From assembly GCA_032622095.1 (NCBI GenBank), contig CP136067.1, positions 135,659,990 through 135,723,989 of the forward strand: 64,000 bases of DNA, in the 5' to 3' direction. Positions within the stretch are counted from its first letter, which is position 1; every line of letters begins with the position of its first letter. Both the position numbers and the translations under genes were made by a program. This DNA is from Siphonodentalium dalli. Lineage: Eukaryota; Mollusca; Scaphopoda; Gadilida; Siphonodentaliidae. A model generated the notes under the pieces. That model had not been told where the DNA came from. It saw nothing but the letters and a program-made list of their open reading frames with translations, and did no database searches. Shown one piece after another: positions 14,219 to 51,641 of this stretch.

Positions 14219-14320
14219 CAATCCTATTTGTATTCCTGACTATGGTTATCTTTTACAGATGACAGATCTGTTTAAAATTATAATGATTTGTTTTACTTTA
14301 TGATGATCCTATTAAAATTT
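14219..14320. repeat. Duplicated acceptor/start of exon 7
   Basis: ATCCTATTTGTATTC (14222) resembles interior exon 7 sequence. TTTTACAGATGACAGATCTG (14251) is a second copy of the acceptor plus first codons. TTTTACTTTATGATGATCCT (14290) repeats codons 5-11. These precede the true acceptor at 14325 and come from local tandem duplication of the exon edge. Confidence 0.75.
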
Positions 14321-14325
14321 TACAG

Positions 14326-14506
14326 ATGAAAGATCTGTTTTACTTTATGATGATCCTGTTTGTATTCATGGCCGCCTACTCCGTGGGATCTCAAGCTATC
14401 CTGAATCATGAGCCACAAAGCTTCACGGCTCATTTCTTCTTCATGGAGCTCTTCAAGAGGGCTTACTACCATATCTATGGAGATCTACAACTCACCAGCT
14501 ACACAG
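14326..14506 (+). CDS. TRPM2: TRPM2-like exon 7 (S5 and pore helix/filter)
   Basis: 60 codons plus one base, acceptor TTTTACAG, donor GTATGT. Encodes MKDLFYFMMILFVFMAAYSV (S5), GSQAILNHEPQ, then the pore helix ELFKRAYYHIYGDLQLTSYT. YGD occupies the place of the FGQ or YGE selectivity-filter triplet of other TRPMs. Both edges of this exon are duplicated in the flanking intron: the acceptor and start just upstream (14219-14320), and the end plus donor six more times downstream (14507-15155). The first donor is taken as real because exon 8 fits its phase. Confidence 0.9.
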
Positions 14507-15155
14507 GTATGTGTAATAGCAAATATCAGTATCTCACTTCATATCTACGGAGATCTACAACTCACCAGCTACACAGGTATGTGTAATAGCAAATATCAGT
14601 ATCTCACTTCATATCTACAGAGATGCAATTCACCAGCTACACAGGTAGGTGTAATAGCAAATATCAGTATCTCACTTCCGTCCCCTATAGAGGGCTGCAT
14701 TATCTCATTATCTCGCTTCCGCCACCAGTATCTCGCTTCATATCTACGGAGATCTACAATTCACCAGCTATACAGGTAGCTAGGTTTAATAGCAAATATC
14801 AGTATCTCGCTTCCGCCCCCTATAGAGGGCTGCCTTACATCGCTTCTGCCCCCAGTATCTCACTTCAAACCCCTATAGAGGGTTTACTACCACATCTACA
14901 GAGATCTACAATTCACCAGCTATACAGGTAGGTGTAATAGCAAATATCAGTATCTCGCTTCCGCCCCCTATAGAGGGCTACATTACCTCATTATCTCACT
15001 TCCGCCACCAGTATCTCGCTTCATATCTACGGAGATCTACAATTTATCAGCTATACAGGTAGGTGTAATAGCAAATATCAGTATCTCGCTTCCGCCCCCT
15101 ATAGAGGTCATACTAACATATCTATGGAGATCTACAACTCAACAGCTATACAGGT
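14507..15155. repeat. Tandem array of exon 7 end plus 5' splice site
   Basis: The last ~35 nt of exon 7 (ATATCTACGGAGATCTACAA ... CACCAGCTACACAG) with the GT donor recur six times. GT dinucleotides fall at 14577, 14645, 14776, 14928, 15059 and 15154, besides the real one at 14507. Spacer units GTAATAGCAAATATCAGTAT and CTTCCGCCCCCTATAGAGGG fill the array. The first two units are about 70 bp, later ones 95-152 bp. Copies retain AG|GTA(G/T)G, so several look like competent donors. Confidence 0.85.
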
Positions 15156-15170
15156 AGCCCCATTTATAAA

Positions 15171-21390: not shown

Positions 21391-23806
21391 ATCAAGCGGT
21401 AAAATTGTCCATGAACTGGATCAGCAAATTCTTTCAGATATCCTAAAAGACACCCAGGAAATATTGAATGACATTTGCACGACTGATATTAATTCCACTA
21501 ATGCTATTACTAACAATGTACATTGTGATGATATTGATGATACACACATACACACAAATGTTATTACTAGTGGTGATATCAGTGGGGCTGATGTTAAGGG
21601 TGAGTTCAGTTTTCTGACATTAAATGTATGTGGTCTTCGAAACAAATTAGAATACCCAGAATTCCAAGAACTGTGTTCAAAACATGATGTTCTCTGCTTT
21701 ATGGAAACAAAGACTGATGACTGTGATCAGTTAAATCATAGTGGGTACACACTATACATGAAAAATAGACAAAAGCTATCACGAATACGGTCCGGTGGGA
21801 TAGTGATCGGAATTAAGGACGAACTAGTCCCTTTCTCGAAAATTATTGAAACAAATTCTAAATTTGTACAATGGATTGAGATTAAGAAATGTGTGGCGCA
21901 GCACAAAATTCACATCATTATAGGTGCAGTATACATACCTCCAGAAGGAAGTAGTTACACTTCAAAAGACGCATTCATCGAAATTGAAAGTGACTACTGC
22001 ACTTTAGCTAATCGCACAAATAACATTTTCCTAACAGGCGACTTCAATGCGCGTACAGCATGTTCCACTGATATCAACATTATTGATGAAAATTTCGAAG
22101 AGTTCCAATGCACCCCTGATTCCTTCCTGTTTTCAGAGCAGCTGTTTTATCTGAATATGACTTGTATGCCTGTACATAGACAAAGTCAAGATCTATCCAA
22201 AAACGTATATGGGACCCTACTGCTAGATTTGTGTCGACATAATGAATTTGTTATCTTGAATGGTAGAGCAGGAAGTGATAGTGGTTACGGCGCATTGACA
22301 AGCCGAGCGGCGTCCCTTATTGACTATAGCATATGCCATGCTGCAGCACTGCCTTATATATCAGACTTCCGGGTACTTCCTTTTAATCCACTGACTTCAG
22401 ATATTCATTGTGGCATTATAACTACCTTAAAATTTAACGATATCCGCACATGCGAGAATTTTGAAGATCTATCGTCTAGCTGCGAAAATAGTGTAAAAAG
22501 ATGGGACCCAGAAAAACGCTTAGAATTTATCGCAAATATTAACTACCACGACATTGCTGGAATATGGCACTTGTTAGATGTGATCAATGTAGAAGATATT
22601 AGCCCAGGCACGATAAACGAACTGACTAGTTCAATCGCCAATGTTATGACAACAGCCGCTGTGGAGACTTTAGGTGTATATAATAAAAAGTCACGACCAC
22701 GCGCGTCAATCAAGACCAAACCATGGTTCAATGATGCGTGTCGTAATGCACGCAAGTTATACCGCAAAGCTACAAGGGAGAACCATAGATTGCGGTCAGC
22801 CAGTTCCGACCGAGAAATGAAAGCCGCTGCACGCTCTTATAAATCAGAGATGGATAAAGCAATTAAATCGCACCGTGATCTTGTGACTTATGAAATGACG
22901 TCCATGCAGCGAAGTAATCCAAAACAATTTTGGAAAAGGCTCAGGGACAGTAACTCTAATCGTATTGGTGTTAATTTAGATGACTTAGCTAATTATTTTC
23001 GCGATGTCAACGCTATTAGACACGATGATAACCCTGTTGTAGAGAGAACTATAAAGGCACACTTTAGCATTGATGCTAACCCTGAACTAAACATGCCAAT
23101 TACCGAGTTCGAAATACAACAGTCGATTAATACTTTGAAAAACAATAAATCATCCGGCCACGACCGCATTGTCAATGAGTATATCATTGCCTCATCCGAA
23201 GTCTTTGTCAGCATATACCGTAAGTTATTTAATATCATACTGGATACTGGTCTCATACCCGAAGACTGGGTAACTGGAACGATTGTCCCTCTCTATAAAA
23301 ACAAAGGAAATTTAAGTGACCCAGGTAATTATAGGCCGATAACGATCTTGAGTTGTTTTGGTAAGTTATTTACAAAGATATTGTCAAATAGGCTCACACA
23401 ATATGTCGAAAAATATGAAATACTCTCAGAAAACCAGACTGGTTTCAGAAAAAATTATTCAACCCTCGACAATATATTTGTGCTACATTTGTTGTTCGAA
23501 ATTAGTAGAAAATTGAAAAAGAAACTAATATGTGCGTTTGTTGACTTCCAGAAAGCCTTTGATACCGTGTGGAGACAGGGGCTCTGGTCCAAACTTGTAA
23601 AAAGTGGAATCAATGGTAAATTGTTTAGGGTCATCGTCAACATGTATAACCATGTGAAATCATGTGTCCGTGTAAATGGCGAGCTATCAGCTTATTTTCC
23701 ATGTTATGCGGGGGTTCGCCAAGGTGAGAACTTATCCCCACTGTTGTTTTCCTTGTATTTGAATGATTTGGAAGAATTTTCCTTGAAAACTGCACAGTGG
23801 GACTGA
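21344..23806 (+). CDS. LINE ORF2: APE endonuclease and RT (main part)
   Basis: 820-codon frame. From ~residue 87 an AP-endonuclease-like domain: FLTLNVCGLRNK, FMETKTD, AVYIPPEGSSY, FLTGDFNAR (~230), SLIDYSIC and TSDIHCG (~350). Reverse transcriptase follows: GHDRIVNEYI, GTIVPLYKNKG, NYRPITILSCFGKLFTKIL, ENQTGFRKNYST, AFVDFQKAFDTVW (motif A, ~731) and AGVRQGENLSPLLFSLYLND (motif B, ~789). The frame ends early: the catalytic YADD box is in the next frame, so a single indel near 23790 broke the protein. The expected product is the nicking and cDNA-synthesis enzyme of LINE transposition. Confidence 0.92.
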   Translation: MLEEISSVDAISNITESSGKIVHELDQQILSDILKDTQEILNDICTTDINSTNAITNNVHCDDIDDTHIHTNVITSGDISGADVKGEFSFLTLNVCGLRNKLEYPEFQELCSKHDVLCFMETKTDDCDQLNHSGYTLYMKNRQKLSRIRSGGIVIGIKDELVPFSKIIETNSKFVQWIEIKKCVAQHKIHIIIGAVYIPPEGSSYTSKDAFIEIESDYCTLANRTNNIFLTGDFNARTACSTDINIIDENFEEFQCTPDSFLFSEQLFYLNMTCMPVHRQSQDLSKNVYGTLLLDLCRHNEFVILNGRAGSDSGYGALTSRAASLIDYSICHAAALPYISDFRVLPFNPLTSDIHCGIITTLKFNDIRTCENFEDLSSSCENSVKRWDPEKRLEFIANINYHDIAGIWHLLDVINVEDISPGTINELTSSIANVMTTAAVETLGVYNKKSRPRASIKTKPWFNDACRNARKLYRKATRENHRLRSASSDREMKAAARSYKSEMDKAIKSHRDLVTYEMTSMQRSNPKQFWKRLRDSNSNRIGVNLDDLANYFRDVNAIRHDDNPVVERTIKAHFSIDANPELNMPITEFEIQQSINTLKNNKSSGHDRIVNEYIIASSEVFVSIYRKLFNIILDTGLIPEDWVTGTIVPLYKNKGNLSDPGNYRPITILSCFGKLFTKILSNRLTQYVEKYEILSENQTGFRKNYSTLDNIFVLHLLFEISRKLKKKLICAFVDFQKAFDTVWRQGLWSKLVKSGINGKLFRVIVNMYNHVKSCVRVNGELSAYFPCYAGVRQGENLSPLLFSLYLNDLEEFSLKTAQWD

Positions 23807-24038
23807 AAACTGTAGACGCGGAGATAGGTGACAAATTGAACTACTATTTGAAGATATTCATGATTCTTTACGCCGACGATACAGTTATTATGGCGGAAAC
23901 ACCTAAAGGGTTACAGCAACAACTCGATATTTTTGAAAAATATTGTAGTCAATGGAAATTAACAGTCAATGTGGATAAAACAAAAATATTAAATTTATCT
24001 AAAGCGAGTCTATGCAAGAAAGTCTCGTTTCTGTTTAA
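23797..24038 (+). pseudogene. LINE RT, YADD segment after frameshift
   Basis: GLKTVDAEIGDKLNYYLKIF then MILYADDTVIMAETPKGLQQ (motif C with the two catalytic Asp) and KLTVNVDKTKILNLS. This continues ORF2 in the third frame. It is cut at KVSFLFKG by a TTAA-inserted MITE; coding resumes in the same frame at 24537. Confidence 0.88.
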
Positions 24039-24532
24039 AGGTACGGTTGGCCTTGGTGGTGGGTATCCTGTGAAAATATTTCCACCCGTCAAAAACCGTC
24101 ACAAACAGAAAGAACATCAAAATGTAGACAGACTTTTTCCGTATACAAATAAGAAATATCGCATAAACAGTATGTTATTGTCATATGTTGACCATTGTTA
24201 TGTAAACAAAAGCATAAAAAAGTTACTTTTCTGGTGTTTGTTTATATTATGATGGTAAACATAAAGAGCGTTCTTTGTTGGTGAATTCCTGATATGGAAC
24301 TAATAAAGAGCGTTTATGCCATTTGTGTGTGATTAGCCAGTAGCATTGTGCTGTCTTCTGTAACACAATCAGGCTCTTGCTTAGGTAAAATATAGTAGGT
24401 CTTTGTGATAACATGTTGTTTACGCGATGGTCATGGTAAATATGAACGAAACTGTATGCGTTTTAATGATTTTCTGTTTACGGTGATTGGAACAAATATG
24501 AATATTTTCGACAACTAAGGCCTCACGTGCCT
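24039..24532. mobile_element. TTAA-flanked MITE inside the RT gene, 494 bp
   Basis: TTAA at 24035-24038 and 24533-24536. Termini AGGTACGGTTGGCCTT and the complement of AAGGCCTCACGTGCCT match at 12 of 16 positions. Removing the insert plus one TTAA restores the reading frame across FLFKG-KKIDTVNNFNYLGI, proving a secondary insertion. The open frame that runs to 24252 is read-through into the MITE. Confidence 0.8.
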
Positions 24533-25554
24533 TTAAAGGGAAGAAAATTGATACCGTTAACAATTTTAATTACCTTGGCATAATATTTTGTAAATCCGGC
24601 TCCTTTACGATGGCGAAAAAAACATTGGTAGAAAAAGCCACTCGTGCCATGTACTCCTTAATCGGGAAATCACGCAAACACTGCCTTTCTGTTAAAAATC
24701 AACTGGACTTGTTCGATTTGCATGTTACCCCGATATTGCTATATGGTTGTGAAGTATGGGGGTTTGGCAACAATGATGTTCTGGAAAAAGTCCACCGTAC
24801 ATTTCTTAAACACGTCCTTAAACTTAGGCCATCAACCCCAAATTATATGGTGTACGGGGAATGTGGAAGACTACCATTGCAGATACAGATATATACAAGA
24901 ATGATGAAGTTCTGGAGTAAGATCATGAACAGTAACGGCGGTAGATATCAAAAGCTAATTTTCAAACTAGCACATTCGATGTTCGATATAAACGACGACA
25001 GATTCCCCTGGTTACATAAAGTTTATAATATATTAGAAGACAACGGACAAATACTCTATTGGCACATGGAACAGATACCGGATAGCAACCAACTTATCTC
25101 ATACATGAAATGTAGTTTAATATCCCAGTTTAGAAAATCATGGGAAACGGACTTAAACAACTCGAGCCGAGGCCGCATATATAGAATTTTCAAGCACGAT
25201 TTGTCATTCGAAAATTATCTTGTAACACTCAACATAGCAAATCGTTTCATCTTGTGTAAATTTAGAACAAGCAATCATCGACTCCCGATTGAAATAGGCC
25301 GTTGGAGAAACTCCGAACAATCCGATCGTGTATGCCAACTCTGCAAATCCGGTAAAATTGGAGACGAGTTCCACTACCTTCTCGAGTGCGAAAGCTTATA
25401 TAAAGCCAGGCGTCGTTTATTAACAACGCTAACGGACAAACGCCCCAATACAATCACTATGAGCGAACTACTTAATCAGAAAAATCCAACAAGCCTACGA
25501 CGACTATGTGATTTTATTAAAATTGTTAACCGCGAACTATCGAATATTGAATGA
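24533..25554 (+). pseudogene. LINE RT thumb and C-terminal zinc knuckle
   Basis: Continues IDTVNNFNYLGIIFCKSG, then VTPILLYGCEVWGFGN (RT C-terminal conserved block) and VCQLCKSGKIGDEFHYLLEC. The last is a C-X2-C-X9-H-X4-C zinc knuckle typical of LINE ORF2 C-termini. Ends at TGA 25552. In frame with the upstream YADD segment once the MITE is excised. Confidence 0.88.
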
Positions 25555-46745: not shown

Positions 46746-46851
46746 GTGGAAGAGGGACCAGACAGGTAATATAATACAGGAGAATGGGAAGAAGGTGCTG
46801 GAGGTTGTTACTGTACAGAGGACGGACACAGTACAGTGGGCTCTCCCTGGG
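46746..46851 (+). CDS. TRPM2: TRPM2-like exon 17 (NUDT9-H core up to WALPG)
   Basis: 106 nt, phase 2 to 0, acceptor TCCAACAG, donor GTAAGT. Encodes WKRDQTGNIIQENGKKVLEV and RTDTVQWALPG. The WALPG motif marks the strand just before the Nudix box in NUDT9 and TRPM2. A complete TTAA-flanked double-hairpin MITE ends about 40 nt upstream. Confidence 0.96.
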
Positions 46852-46928: not shown

Positions 46929-47145
46929 TACAGTAATTCCCTAAATAATCGACTCCTTAACCACAGCAGAATTATGGGTAACTTTTCAGGATTTAGTCAG
47001 AAATATGGCTTGTTGCCATTCATTGGAAAGCTCTCACTGAGAGCTTTCCAATGAATGGCAACAAGCCATATTTCCATCTAAATCCTGAAAAGTTACCCAT
47101 AATTCTGCTGTGGTAAAGCAGTCAATTATTTAGGGCATTACTGTA
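46929..47145. mobile_element. TA foldback MITE, full length
   Basis: TACAGTAATTCCC to GGGCATTACTGTA, both ~105-bp arms present, loop CTCACTGAGAG. Confidence 0.85.
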
Positions 47146-47586: not shown

Positions 47587-47798
47587 TACAGTAATGCCCT
47601 AAATAATCGACTCCTTAACCACAGCAAAATTATGGGTAACTTTTCAGGATTTAGTCAGAAATGCCATTCATCGGAAAGATCTCCGTGAGAGCTTTCCGAT
47701 GAATGGGAACAATTCAAGCCATATTTCCGACTAAATCCTGAAAAGTTACCCATAATTCTGCTGTGGTTAAGGAGTCAATTATTTAGGGCATTACTGTA
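47587..47798. mobile_element. TA foldback MITE, full length
   Basis: TACAGTAATGCCC to GGGCATTACTGTA; one arm has lost about 10 bp. Confidence 0.85.
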
Positions 47799-47847: not shown

Positions 47848-48015
47848 TTAACCACAGCAGAATTATGGGTAATTTTTCAGGATTTAGTCGGAAATATGGC
47901 TTGTTGCCATTCATCGGAAAGCTCTCACCAGCAAGCCATATTTCCAACTAAATCCTGAAAAATTCCCATAATTCTGCTGTGGTTTAGGGGTCGGTTATTT
48001 AGGACATTATTGTAC
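47848..48015. mobile_element. TA foldback MITE, left end lost
   Basis: TTAACCACAGCAGAATTATG to GGACATTATTGTA. It appears to sit in another GGGACCAGCC repeat (47818). Confidence 0.7.
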
Positions 48016-48139
48016 TTGGACCAGTGCAGTTCCCATCATGAAAGGTTTAACTAATGTATTGTGACCCCGGTTGAGTACCTTTAATATGACCTGATAACTT
48101 TCATCCTAATTATGAGTGTATGTGTGATCCTTGATGAGT

Positions 48140-48787
48140 ACCTTTAAATATAAAATAGTACTGCCTCGAGGAGTAGCTTTAAATATGGCTGATACATTAT
48201 ATTTTTGATACATTATATTCTTTTAACCAGTGTATGTGTGACCCCAGTAGTTCTGCCTCGAGGAGTAGCTTTAAATATGGCTGATACATTATATTTTTGA
48301 TACATTATATTCTTTTAACCAGTGTATGTGTGACCCCAGTAGTTCTGCCTCGAGGAGTAGCTTTAAATATGGCTGATACATTATATTTTTGATACATTAT
48401 ATTCTTTTAACCAGTGTATGTGTGACCCCGGTAGTTCTGCCTCGAGGAGTAGCTTTAAATATGGCTGATACATTATATTTTTTATACCTTCTATTCTTTT
48501 AACCAGTGTAGGTGTGACCCCGGCAGTACTGCCTCGAGGAGTAGCTTTAAATATGGCTGATACATTATATTTTTTATACCTTATATTCTTTTAACCAGTG
48601 TATGTGTGATCCCGGAAGTACTGCCTCGAGGAGTAGCTTTAAATATGGCTGATACATTATACTATTGATACATTATATTCTTTTAACCAGTGTATGTGTG
48701 ACCCCGGCAGTACTGACTCGAGGAGTAGCTTTAAATATGACATGACTGATACATTATATTATTGATACCTTATATTCTTTTAACCAG
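48140..48787. repeat. 92-bp tandem array carrying the exon 18 acceptor
   Basis: Units begin after AACCAG at 48231, 48323, 48415, 48507, 48599 and 48691, then the real exon at 48788 (spacings 92 x5, then 97). Each contains the pyrimidine tract and acceptor (TTCTTTTAACCAG) and ~50 nt copied from the exon (TGTATGTGTGACCCCGG...GAGGAGTAGCTTTAAATA), then GGCTGATACATTATAT. Copies read CTCGAGG where the exon reads CTGGAGA, and run into TGA after 17 codons. Confidence 0.92.
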
Positions 48788-48928
48788 TGTATGTGTGACC
48801 CCGGCAGTACTGCCTGGAGAAGTAGCTTTAAATACGACTTCATCAAAGAAAAGAAGGATTTACTGAAAGAATATGAAAAAGAGAACTTAAACCATGAGAT
48901 GGAGGAATTGTTCAGCAATGGTGAAGAG
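48788..48928 (+). CDS. TRPM2: TRPM2-like exon 18 (degenerate Nudix box)
   Basis: 47 codons, phase 0 to 0, acceptor TTTTAACCAG, donor GTGGGT. Begins CMCDPGSTAWRSSFKYDF then IKEKKDLLKEYEKENLN and EELFSNGEE. Aligned with NUDT9 (GGMVDPGE...REFGEEA), DPG is kept. The Glu after it is Ser, and REFGEE reads roughly YDFIKE, so the GX5EX7REUXEEXGU signature is lost. Vertebrate TRPM2 is also degenerate here (RILRQE). The first ~50 nt and the acceptor are repeated seven times upstream at 92-nt period, and the donor is repeated downstream. The real copy is the only one that stays open. Confidence 0.92.
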
Positions 48929-49075
48929 GTGGGTAATGTTCATTTAATAATTATAAGGTGGGTAATGTTCATAGAATAATGGTGAAGATGTGGGTAATGT
49001 TGATAGAATAATTATAAGGTGGGTAATGTTCATAGAATAATGGTGAAGAGGTTGGCAATGTTCATTTAATAATTA
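48929..49075. repeat. Tandem copies of exon 18 end and donor
   Basis: AATGGTGAAGAGGTGGGTAA (real exon end and donor, 48917) recurs as AATGGTGAAGATGTGGGTAA (48981) and AATGGTGAAGAGGTTGGCAA (49038). Each is followed by TGTTCAT...ATAATTATAA spacer. Confidence 0.8.
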
Positions 49076-49437
49076 TAAAACCTCCCAACATAGCTCTTTT
49101 GAAATCCACTATATTCTGCTTTCTTGATACCAACTCTGATTATAAGCCTTTGTCAAGGTTAAATTCCTGAAAAAATTTGAAATACCCTTGTCGATTGAGT
49201 TTGTGTAAGACAATATGACTGATGTGTGTTTTCCCCTGATATAAGTAGATTTAGTTATTAATCAAGGCATGACACATTGAGACATCAATAATTTAGCTTT
49301 TCAACAAATTCATTAACATATTCTACATCAAAATTTTACTAATTCTATCCCAATTCTCCAGAATCAACCTCCTCAAAATTATGTTTTGAGATTTAATAAC
49401 AGGTCTGGTCATTCTCAGTATAGGCACAGTTGCCAGG

Positions 49438-49635
49438 TACAGTAATGCCCTAAATAATCGACCTCTTAATCACAGAAGAATTATGGGTAACTTTTCAGCA
49501 TTTAGTCGGAAATATGGCTTGTTGCCATTCATTGGAAAGCTCTCCCTGAGTGATGAATGGCAACAAGCCATATTTCCGACTAAATCCTGAAAAATTACCC
49601 ATAATTCTTCTGTGGTTATTTAGGGCATTACTGTA
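49438..49635. mobile_element. TA foldback MITE
   Basis: Starts TACAGTAATGCCC (at 49438) and ends GGGCATTACTGTA; right arm shortened near the tip (TCTGTGGTTATTTAGGGC). Confidence 0.8.
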
Positions 49636-49822
49636 TCATGTCACGGCAGAGATCCATGGTCTCAAAATTTTATTATATTTCAGTCTTCAAATTAAGACAT
49701 TTCTGGATAAACAAGAGGGAACCTTTATTCAGTGGCATAGGGGCCTGCGTCAAAAATTTAAAATAAGAAAAAGTTTAATTAAATTTTTTTTTTTAGATTG
49801 AACTCCTTGCTCAGTTTTTTTT

Positions 49823-51527: not shown

Positions 51528-51641
51528 ATCTATCGTGGTTATGCCGATGATGCTAGAAATACAGATAATTCCTGGGTGGAAACCATAGCAACAAACTACC
51601 ATGATGAAGACGGAGCATTGCTAGCAAATTTCTCTTTGCGG
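51528..51641 (+). CDS. TRPM2: TRPM2-like exon 19 (NUDT9-H, DxRNTDNxW)
   Basis: 38 codons, phase 0 to 0, acceptor CTTTTCAG, donor GTAAGT. Encodes [19 protein letters not shown] and [19 protein letters not shown]. Matches VYKGYMDDPRNTDNAWIET of human TRPM2 and the NYHDE of NUDT9. This is one of the best conserved stretches of the ADP-ribose-binding cleft. Confidence 0.97.

Follow-up and report, generated by a model that had tools for sequence, protein, structure and literature searches.

The tandem array that precedes exon 18 of a TRPM2-like channel gene is very probably a mirage, a boundary-spanning minisatellite that would be a tolerated mutational accident, with its decoy acceptors ignored by splicing. 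The array lies in the window, the whole stretch of 64,000 nucleotides that we analyzed, which is one stretch of a genome of 2.23 Gb in nine contigs, and it is known from one individual and one assembly. Its 92-bp unit is within the 10 to 160 bp published for mirages and spans the intron/exon boundary, including the splice site. Positions below are those of the window, and the gene, its exons, and their arrays are on the forward strand.

The TRPM2-like gene and the array before exon 18

Joined exon pieces from the window were compared with TRPM2 chains in the PDB. The best match was 6co7 (E 1.3e-103), from the sea anemone, and 6mix also matched (1.2e-82). The window thus carries a TRPM2-like channel gene, of which it contains the C-terminal half. 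Exon 18 (48788 to 48928; CMCDPGSTAW...NGEE; 141 nt, phase 0-0) is a predicted exon, placed by homology and by a paralogue exon of equal length. Its upstream splicing partner is exon 17 (46746 to 46851; WKRDQTG...WALPG), which was placed by a match with NUDT9 and TRPM2 chains, and its downstream partner is exon 19 (51528 to 51641), where edge duplication was looked for and not found. The start, length, and phase of exon 18 match those of L001:8672-8812, the best-matching paralogue exon (141 nt, in frame). This paralogue, L001, is on the same contig, and its counterpart of exon 18 encodes TMCEPGTEPWKNSLKYEF....

Exon 18 belongs to the NUDT9-H region, and its product begins CMCDPGSTAWRSSFKYDFIKEKK.... 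In alignments, the exon pairs with the Nudix-motif stretch of NUDT9 (GMVDPGE...REFGEEA) and also with that of TRPM2 chains, but the REUXEE residues of the Nudix box are not kept, and the original label of a Nudix-box exon fits the alignment and not the residues. A Pfam search with exons 17 and 18 gave no family. The box is gone both in the window gene (KYDFIKEK) and in the closest paralogue, L001 (KYEFTTDV), and is kept in three other paralogues (REFLEE in L002 and L003 and REFGEE in L004). If the host is an invertebrate, the loss here would be separate from that treated in the part of the TRPM2 literature represented by PMC6461439. We also observed inverted-repeat elements in the two introns flanking exon 18 (46929 to 47145, 47587 to 47798, 47848 to 47984, and 49438 to 49647), and a similar element directly follows exon 18 of L001. 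A long intron of the channel gene holds reverse-transcriptase-like open frames (23767 to 25551; YADDTVI...), probably of a LINE, as judged from the motif.

TRF reported the array at 48156 to 48834 as 7.3 copies of 92 bp with 95% matches. Six tandem decoy units occupy 48186 to 48787, each consisting of the 3' end of the intron, CAG, and about 46 to 52 nt of exon-18-like sequence, after which the unit breaks into intron sequence. The copies of the exon start are at 48231, 48323, 48415, 48507, 48599, and 48691, and the true start is at 48788, with the first ~52 nt of the true exon forming the last copy of the array. The copies follow one another at steps of 92 bp; an addition of 5 nt in the sixth unit, where ATGAC is doubled, lengthens the last step, from 48691 to the true exon, to 97 bp. 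Upstream, TRF and repeat comparison placed a partial unit 0, with the exon-like part only, at 48156 to 48185, and older, decayed, truncated units occupy 48046 to 48155. The alignment score of the stretch reaching ~48046 was 29.5, against a mean of 10.5 and a maximum of 19.5 in 300 shuffles. The TRF result and the copy positions confirm the original prediction of a tandem amplification of the acceptor and exon start, for which minisatellite, not satellite, is the right term; the spacing of exactly 92 bp applies among the six copies and fails at the last interval. A dispersed-repeat origin of the unit was also considered and rejected, as a DNA search of the genome itself returned this place only, which is no proof because the search skips very common words.

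The copies differ unevenly from each other. Over an alignment of 94 columns, unit 1 was identical to unit 2 and unit 3 showed one difference, units 4 to 6 showed 4 to 7 differences among themselves, and the true copy showed 7 to 9 differences from all units (7 to 8 from units 4 to 6). Near-identity is limited to units 1 to 3, and the homogenization expected of a mirage is therefore partial. The same numbers bear on the earlier claim of homogenization that excludes the true exon, which agrees with units 1 to 3 and the distinct true copy and does not agree with units 4 to 6. The motif CTCGAGG is present in all six copies and in the partial unit (at 48157), compared with CTGGAGA in the true exon, as had been noted. 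Within it, the copies have TCG where the true exon has TGG, and because the array-free paralogue L001 keeps Trp at this codon, the TCG of the copies looks derived, so that one mutated founder copy suffices for their agreement. One mutated founder copy and recent expansion would account for the pattern; exclusion of the true exon by gene conversion is possible but not needed. Among five informative sites one pair was incompatible, so an exchange or a parallel change must have occurred at least once. Constraint on the decoy acceptors was considered separately and rejected, since a run as long as the 19 invariant columns around the junction gave simulated p values of 0.12 across the junction and 0.36 anywhere.

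Splice signals and alternative explanations

Acceptors were scored with a small position weight matrix built from 11 other acceptors of the window gene, and donors were scored with ten training sites. The six decoy acceptors scored 1.2, 1.2, 1.2, -0.3, 0.8, and 1.2, and the true exon-18 site scored 0.8, which bears out the original expectation of near-equal decoys. The training acceptors scored 9.0 to 15.1, a range that is partly circular because these sites trained the matrix, but the S5 acceptor, which was left out of training, scored 9.2, so that the exon-18 acceptor is weak. Because the decoys score like the true acceptor, site strength cannot decide which of the seven is used.

In the frame of the exon, five of the six decoy copies stop at codon 18 and the copy at 48691 runs on to codon 25; the earlier statement that a stop follows each copy applies closely to the five and loosely to the last. 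An exon running from a decoy acceptor to the true donor would be 238 to 698 nt long and would contain an early stop in each case, in line with the original prediction. Skipping of exon 18 keeps the frame (141 nt, phase 0-0). If exon 18 undergoes some alternative splicing, its weak acceptor and its in-frame length are what argue for it most strongly. The weakness of the acceptor, which would ease skipping or misuse, also counts against the mirage reading. The junction is CAG/TGT in the six decoys and in the true site, and recursive or dual-specific splicing was rejected because there is no AG/GT junction.

These properties would suit a splice-control device, in which the decoys compete with the true acceptor and lower or time TRPM2 output via premature-stop transcripts, or promote in-frame skipping of exon 18 to give a channel lacking the Nudix-motif segment. 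The decoys score like a true acceptor that is itself weak, a stop is reached from all six, and the length of the exon is a multiple of three. However, the closest paralogue, L001, the one checked among the paralogues, has no array at exon 18, and no conservation between related genes of the kind expected for a poison exon was seen there. None of the GTs in the array could serve as the donor of a real exon, and we found no cassette with its own donor, as the best GT in the array (donor score, 5.4 to 5.6; next best, 4.4) is 1 nt after each decoy acceptor; the ten training donors scored 4.9 to 12.5 and the true exon-18 donor scored 7.8. In addition, unrelated exons of the same genome show the same anatomy, and published mirages are reported as normally spliced (PMC3087553, PMC3902484). 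Splice control by the array is therefore very improbable, and the splice-timing or poison-exon role put forward by the original prediction appears unlikely on the same grounds.

An assembly artefact, with inflated copy number or wrong order, has a still smaller chance of being the explanation. Tandem arrays are hard to assemble, and no difference separates units 1 and 2 over the 94 compared columns, but units 3 to 6 and the true copy are all mutually different, decayed outer units exist, and similar arrays occur at other loci. The idea that a decoy unit is recruited as an exon, seeding a new intron or exon as PMC3087553 proposes for globin mirages, is scarcely credible here, even with a GT after every decoy acceptor scoring above the weakest training donor, since all decoy frames end in a stop and use of that GT would leave an exon of 1 nt.

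As a mirage, the array would have begun with a tandem duplication across the boundary between intron 17 and exon 18, in which, as the sequence shows, the intron end, AG, and ~52 nt of exon were copied. Slippage or unequal exchange probably then expanded the intronic copies, of which units 1 to 3 are the youngest and the decayed ones lie further upstream. The true copy is the one that continues into the remainder of exon 18, where selection would keep its coding sequence. Splicing most likely ignores the decoys, in that a complete exon, with its donor close by, is defined from the last acceptor only, as exon definition would have it. Any leak to a decoy would yield an early-stop transcript, whose removal by nonsense-mediated decay (NMD) is expected. 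Tandem duplication would arise regardless of exon edges, and copies on the intron side would be tolerated because the splicing machinery would match each donor to whichever acceptor makes the exon complete, a view consistent with exon definition and lancelet cDNA. On this analysis, the array most likely does nothing useful.

Duplicated exon edges in the gene and the genome

Three more edges, which the original prediction does not mention, are duplicated in the window gene, namely, the donor of exon 18 and both the acceptor and the donor of the S5-pore exon. Behind exon 18, TRF and repeat comparison showed an array with a 61-bp unit (48917 to 49078) that includes the last 12 nt of the exon and the donor, with donor-like GTs at 48929 (true), 48958, 48990, 49019, and 49051. 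The part at 48929 to 49078 resembles 31- to 32-bp minisatellites at L005 (C8:175630400-175631400) and L006 (C7:151697300-151698100), with 72 to 75% identity, and the donor-side array and L006 have GGTGGGTAATGTTCA in common. An element like these minisatellites may have supplied the true donor of exon 18.

The S5-pore exon (14326 to 14506; MKDLFYFMMILF...YYHIYGDLQLTSYT) was placed by a TRPM2 chain match. Copy search and acceptor scoring showed one upstream copy of its acceptor and exon start (14251 to 14285; decoy start, 14259), and TRF and donor scoring showed copies of its end on the donor side (14470 to 15158). The true donor is probably at 14507, and six copies of it are at 14577, 14645, 14776, 14928, 15059, and 15154; three of these copies score 12.1, compared with 11.9 for the probable true donor. 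The product of the repeated exon end, YHIYGDLQLTSYT, falls close to the pore/filter region in the alignment with TRPM2, and versions of its codons are therefore present in the donor copies.

Other genes were sampled at 55 loci, the best 30 of 74 Ion_trans matches and the best 25 of 39 Cpn60_TCP1 matches, among which five pairs are near-identical over >1 kb (L014/L015, L025/L026, L039/L040, L050/L051, and L059/L060). Part of the coding match was copied in the flank at 5 of the 55 loci. As read by eye, the copies are on the acceptor side in the Cpn60_TCP1 loci L043 (found by the coding-copy search only) and L058, on the donor side in the Cpn60_TCP1 loci L057 and L061 (ten matching stretches in the latter), and on the acceptor side in the Ion_trans locus L021. 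Among the TRPM2 paralogues, L003 carries two copies of the exon-17 end together with the donor. The occurrence of the same anatomy at a TRPM2 paralogue, four chaperonin loci, and one ion-channel locus indicates that tandem duplication across exon edges recurs in the genome. At L061:1587-2000, the chaperonin exon end with its ATG/GTAAGC donor recurs about 10 times in an array of short period, no less striking than the one at exon 18.

Edges were counted as duplicated when a boundary-spanning direct copy was present within 1.5 kb. In the window gene, where twelve exons and one edge of a thirteenth were covered, 4 of 25 edges were duplicated, compared with 18% of 1500 random positions of the window, showing no enrichment. 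In the other genes, the fraction was 4/80, compared with 77/660 flank positions (Fisher p 0.09), where the 80 edges are heuristic ones from 52 of the 55 loci, the orientation of L054 may be misread, and the edge chosen in L057 and L061 is one of the duplicated donors and not necessarily the true one. When both sets were pooled, 8 of 105 edges were duplicated, compared with the same 77/660 flank positions (p 0.25). Exon edges are perhaps mildly depleted, not enriched, for tandem copies, and special targeting of exon edges was rejected on these counts. Duplicated edges are more frequent in the window gene than in the other sampled genes (4/25 versus 4/80, Fisher p 0.09), which counts against the mirage reading. 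The tolerated accident that the original prediction offered as its other option is supported by the same anatomy at unrelated exons and by the lack of preference for exon edges.

Relation to known mirages and meaning for splicing

The array is a known type of repeat, and its main interest is a host that is probably not a lancelet, with 2.2 Gb in nine contigs. The Branchiostoma genome, in comparison, is of ~0.5 Gb in 18 to 20 chromosomes. Searches for the host markers molluscan haemocyanin (PF14830), GFP (PF01353), and hemerythrin (PF01814) gave no match, with controls responding for hemerythrin alone (7 of 14), and the markers did not place the host. Mirages of lancelets (amphioxus) have been described in Adh3 and the globins BflGb6 and BflGb9, and TnC and PGBD5 were added by PMC3902484 (PMC3087553, PMC3902484). 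They are described there as tandem repeats across intron/exon boundaries, 10 to 160 bp where lengths are given, many with a splice signal, and our arrays are of the same kind. Both 5' and 3' boundaries are affected, and one mirage has 6 and 3 units in two haplotypes (PMC3087553). Inner units are homogenized and cluster edges are excluded from homogenization, RT-PCR suggests regular splicing, and the generating mechanism is called unclear (PMC3087553, PMC3902484). The present arrays differ in being in TRPM2-like and chaperonin genes, and in one gene two exons each have both edges duplicated; the arrays are known from the sequence of one assembly, whereas the lancelet mirages are also known from cDNA and haplotypes. 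Among openly licensed papers we found no mirages outside lancelets, which is not a claim that none has been published.

Tandem repeats that change human gene structures have also been treated (PMC2812944). In dual-specific splice-site arrays, such as those of human UBC and VCX3A, each tandem unit also carries a splice signal, with an AGGT core serving as both donor and acceptor in repeats of coding genes (PMC10809524). Here, in contrast, the junction is not AGGT, and the copies are intronic and contain stops. Genes with duplicated 3' splice sites were engineered in the 1980s. In these constructs, several equivalent acceptors likewise competed before one complete exon; unlike them, the exon-18 array is natural and has seven acceptors.

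The presence of mirages at several genes of a large nine-contig genome suggests a broader mutational process. We lean slightly toward the reading that minisatellites across exon boundaries are, genome-wide in this non-lancelet animal, a common and nearly neutral kind of mutation, that splice-site selection must routinely ignore duplicates of equal strength, and that exon edges are affected at roughly the rate of other positions, sometimes at both edges of one exon. Each array is a pitfall for gene predictors, which may extend the exon falsely. The arrays also amount to constructs made by nature, in which two to seven or more splice sites, nearly identical, stand beside a single complete exon, and ordinary RNA-seq could therefore reveal the rules by which splice sites are chosen. 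If the reading is true, each array would be a natural test of exon definition.
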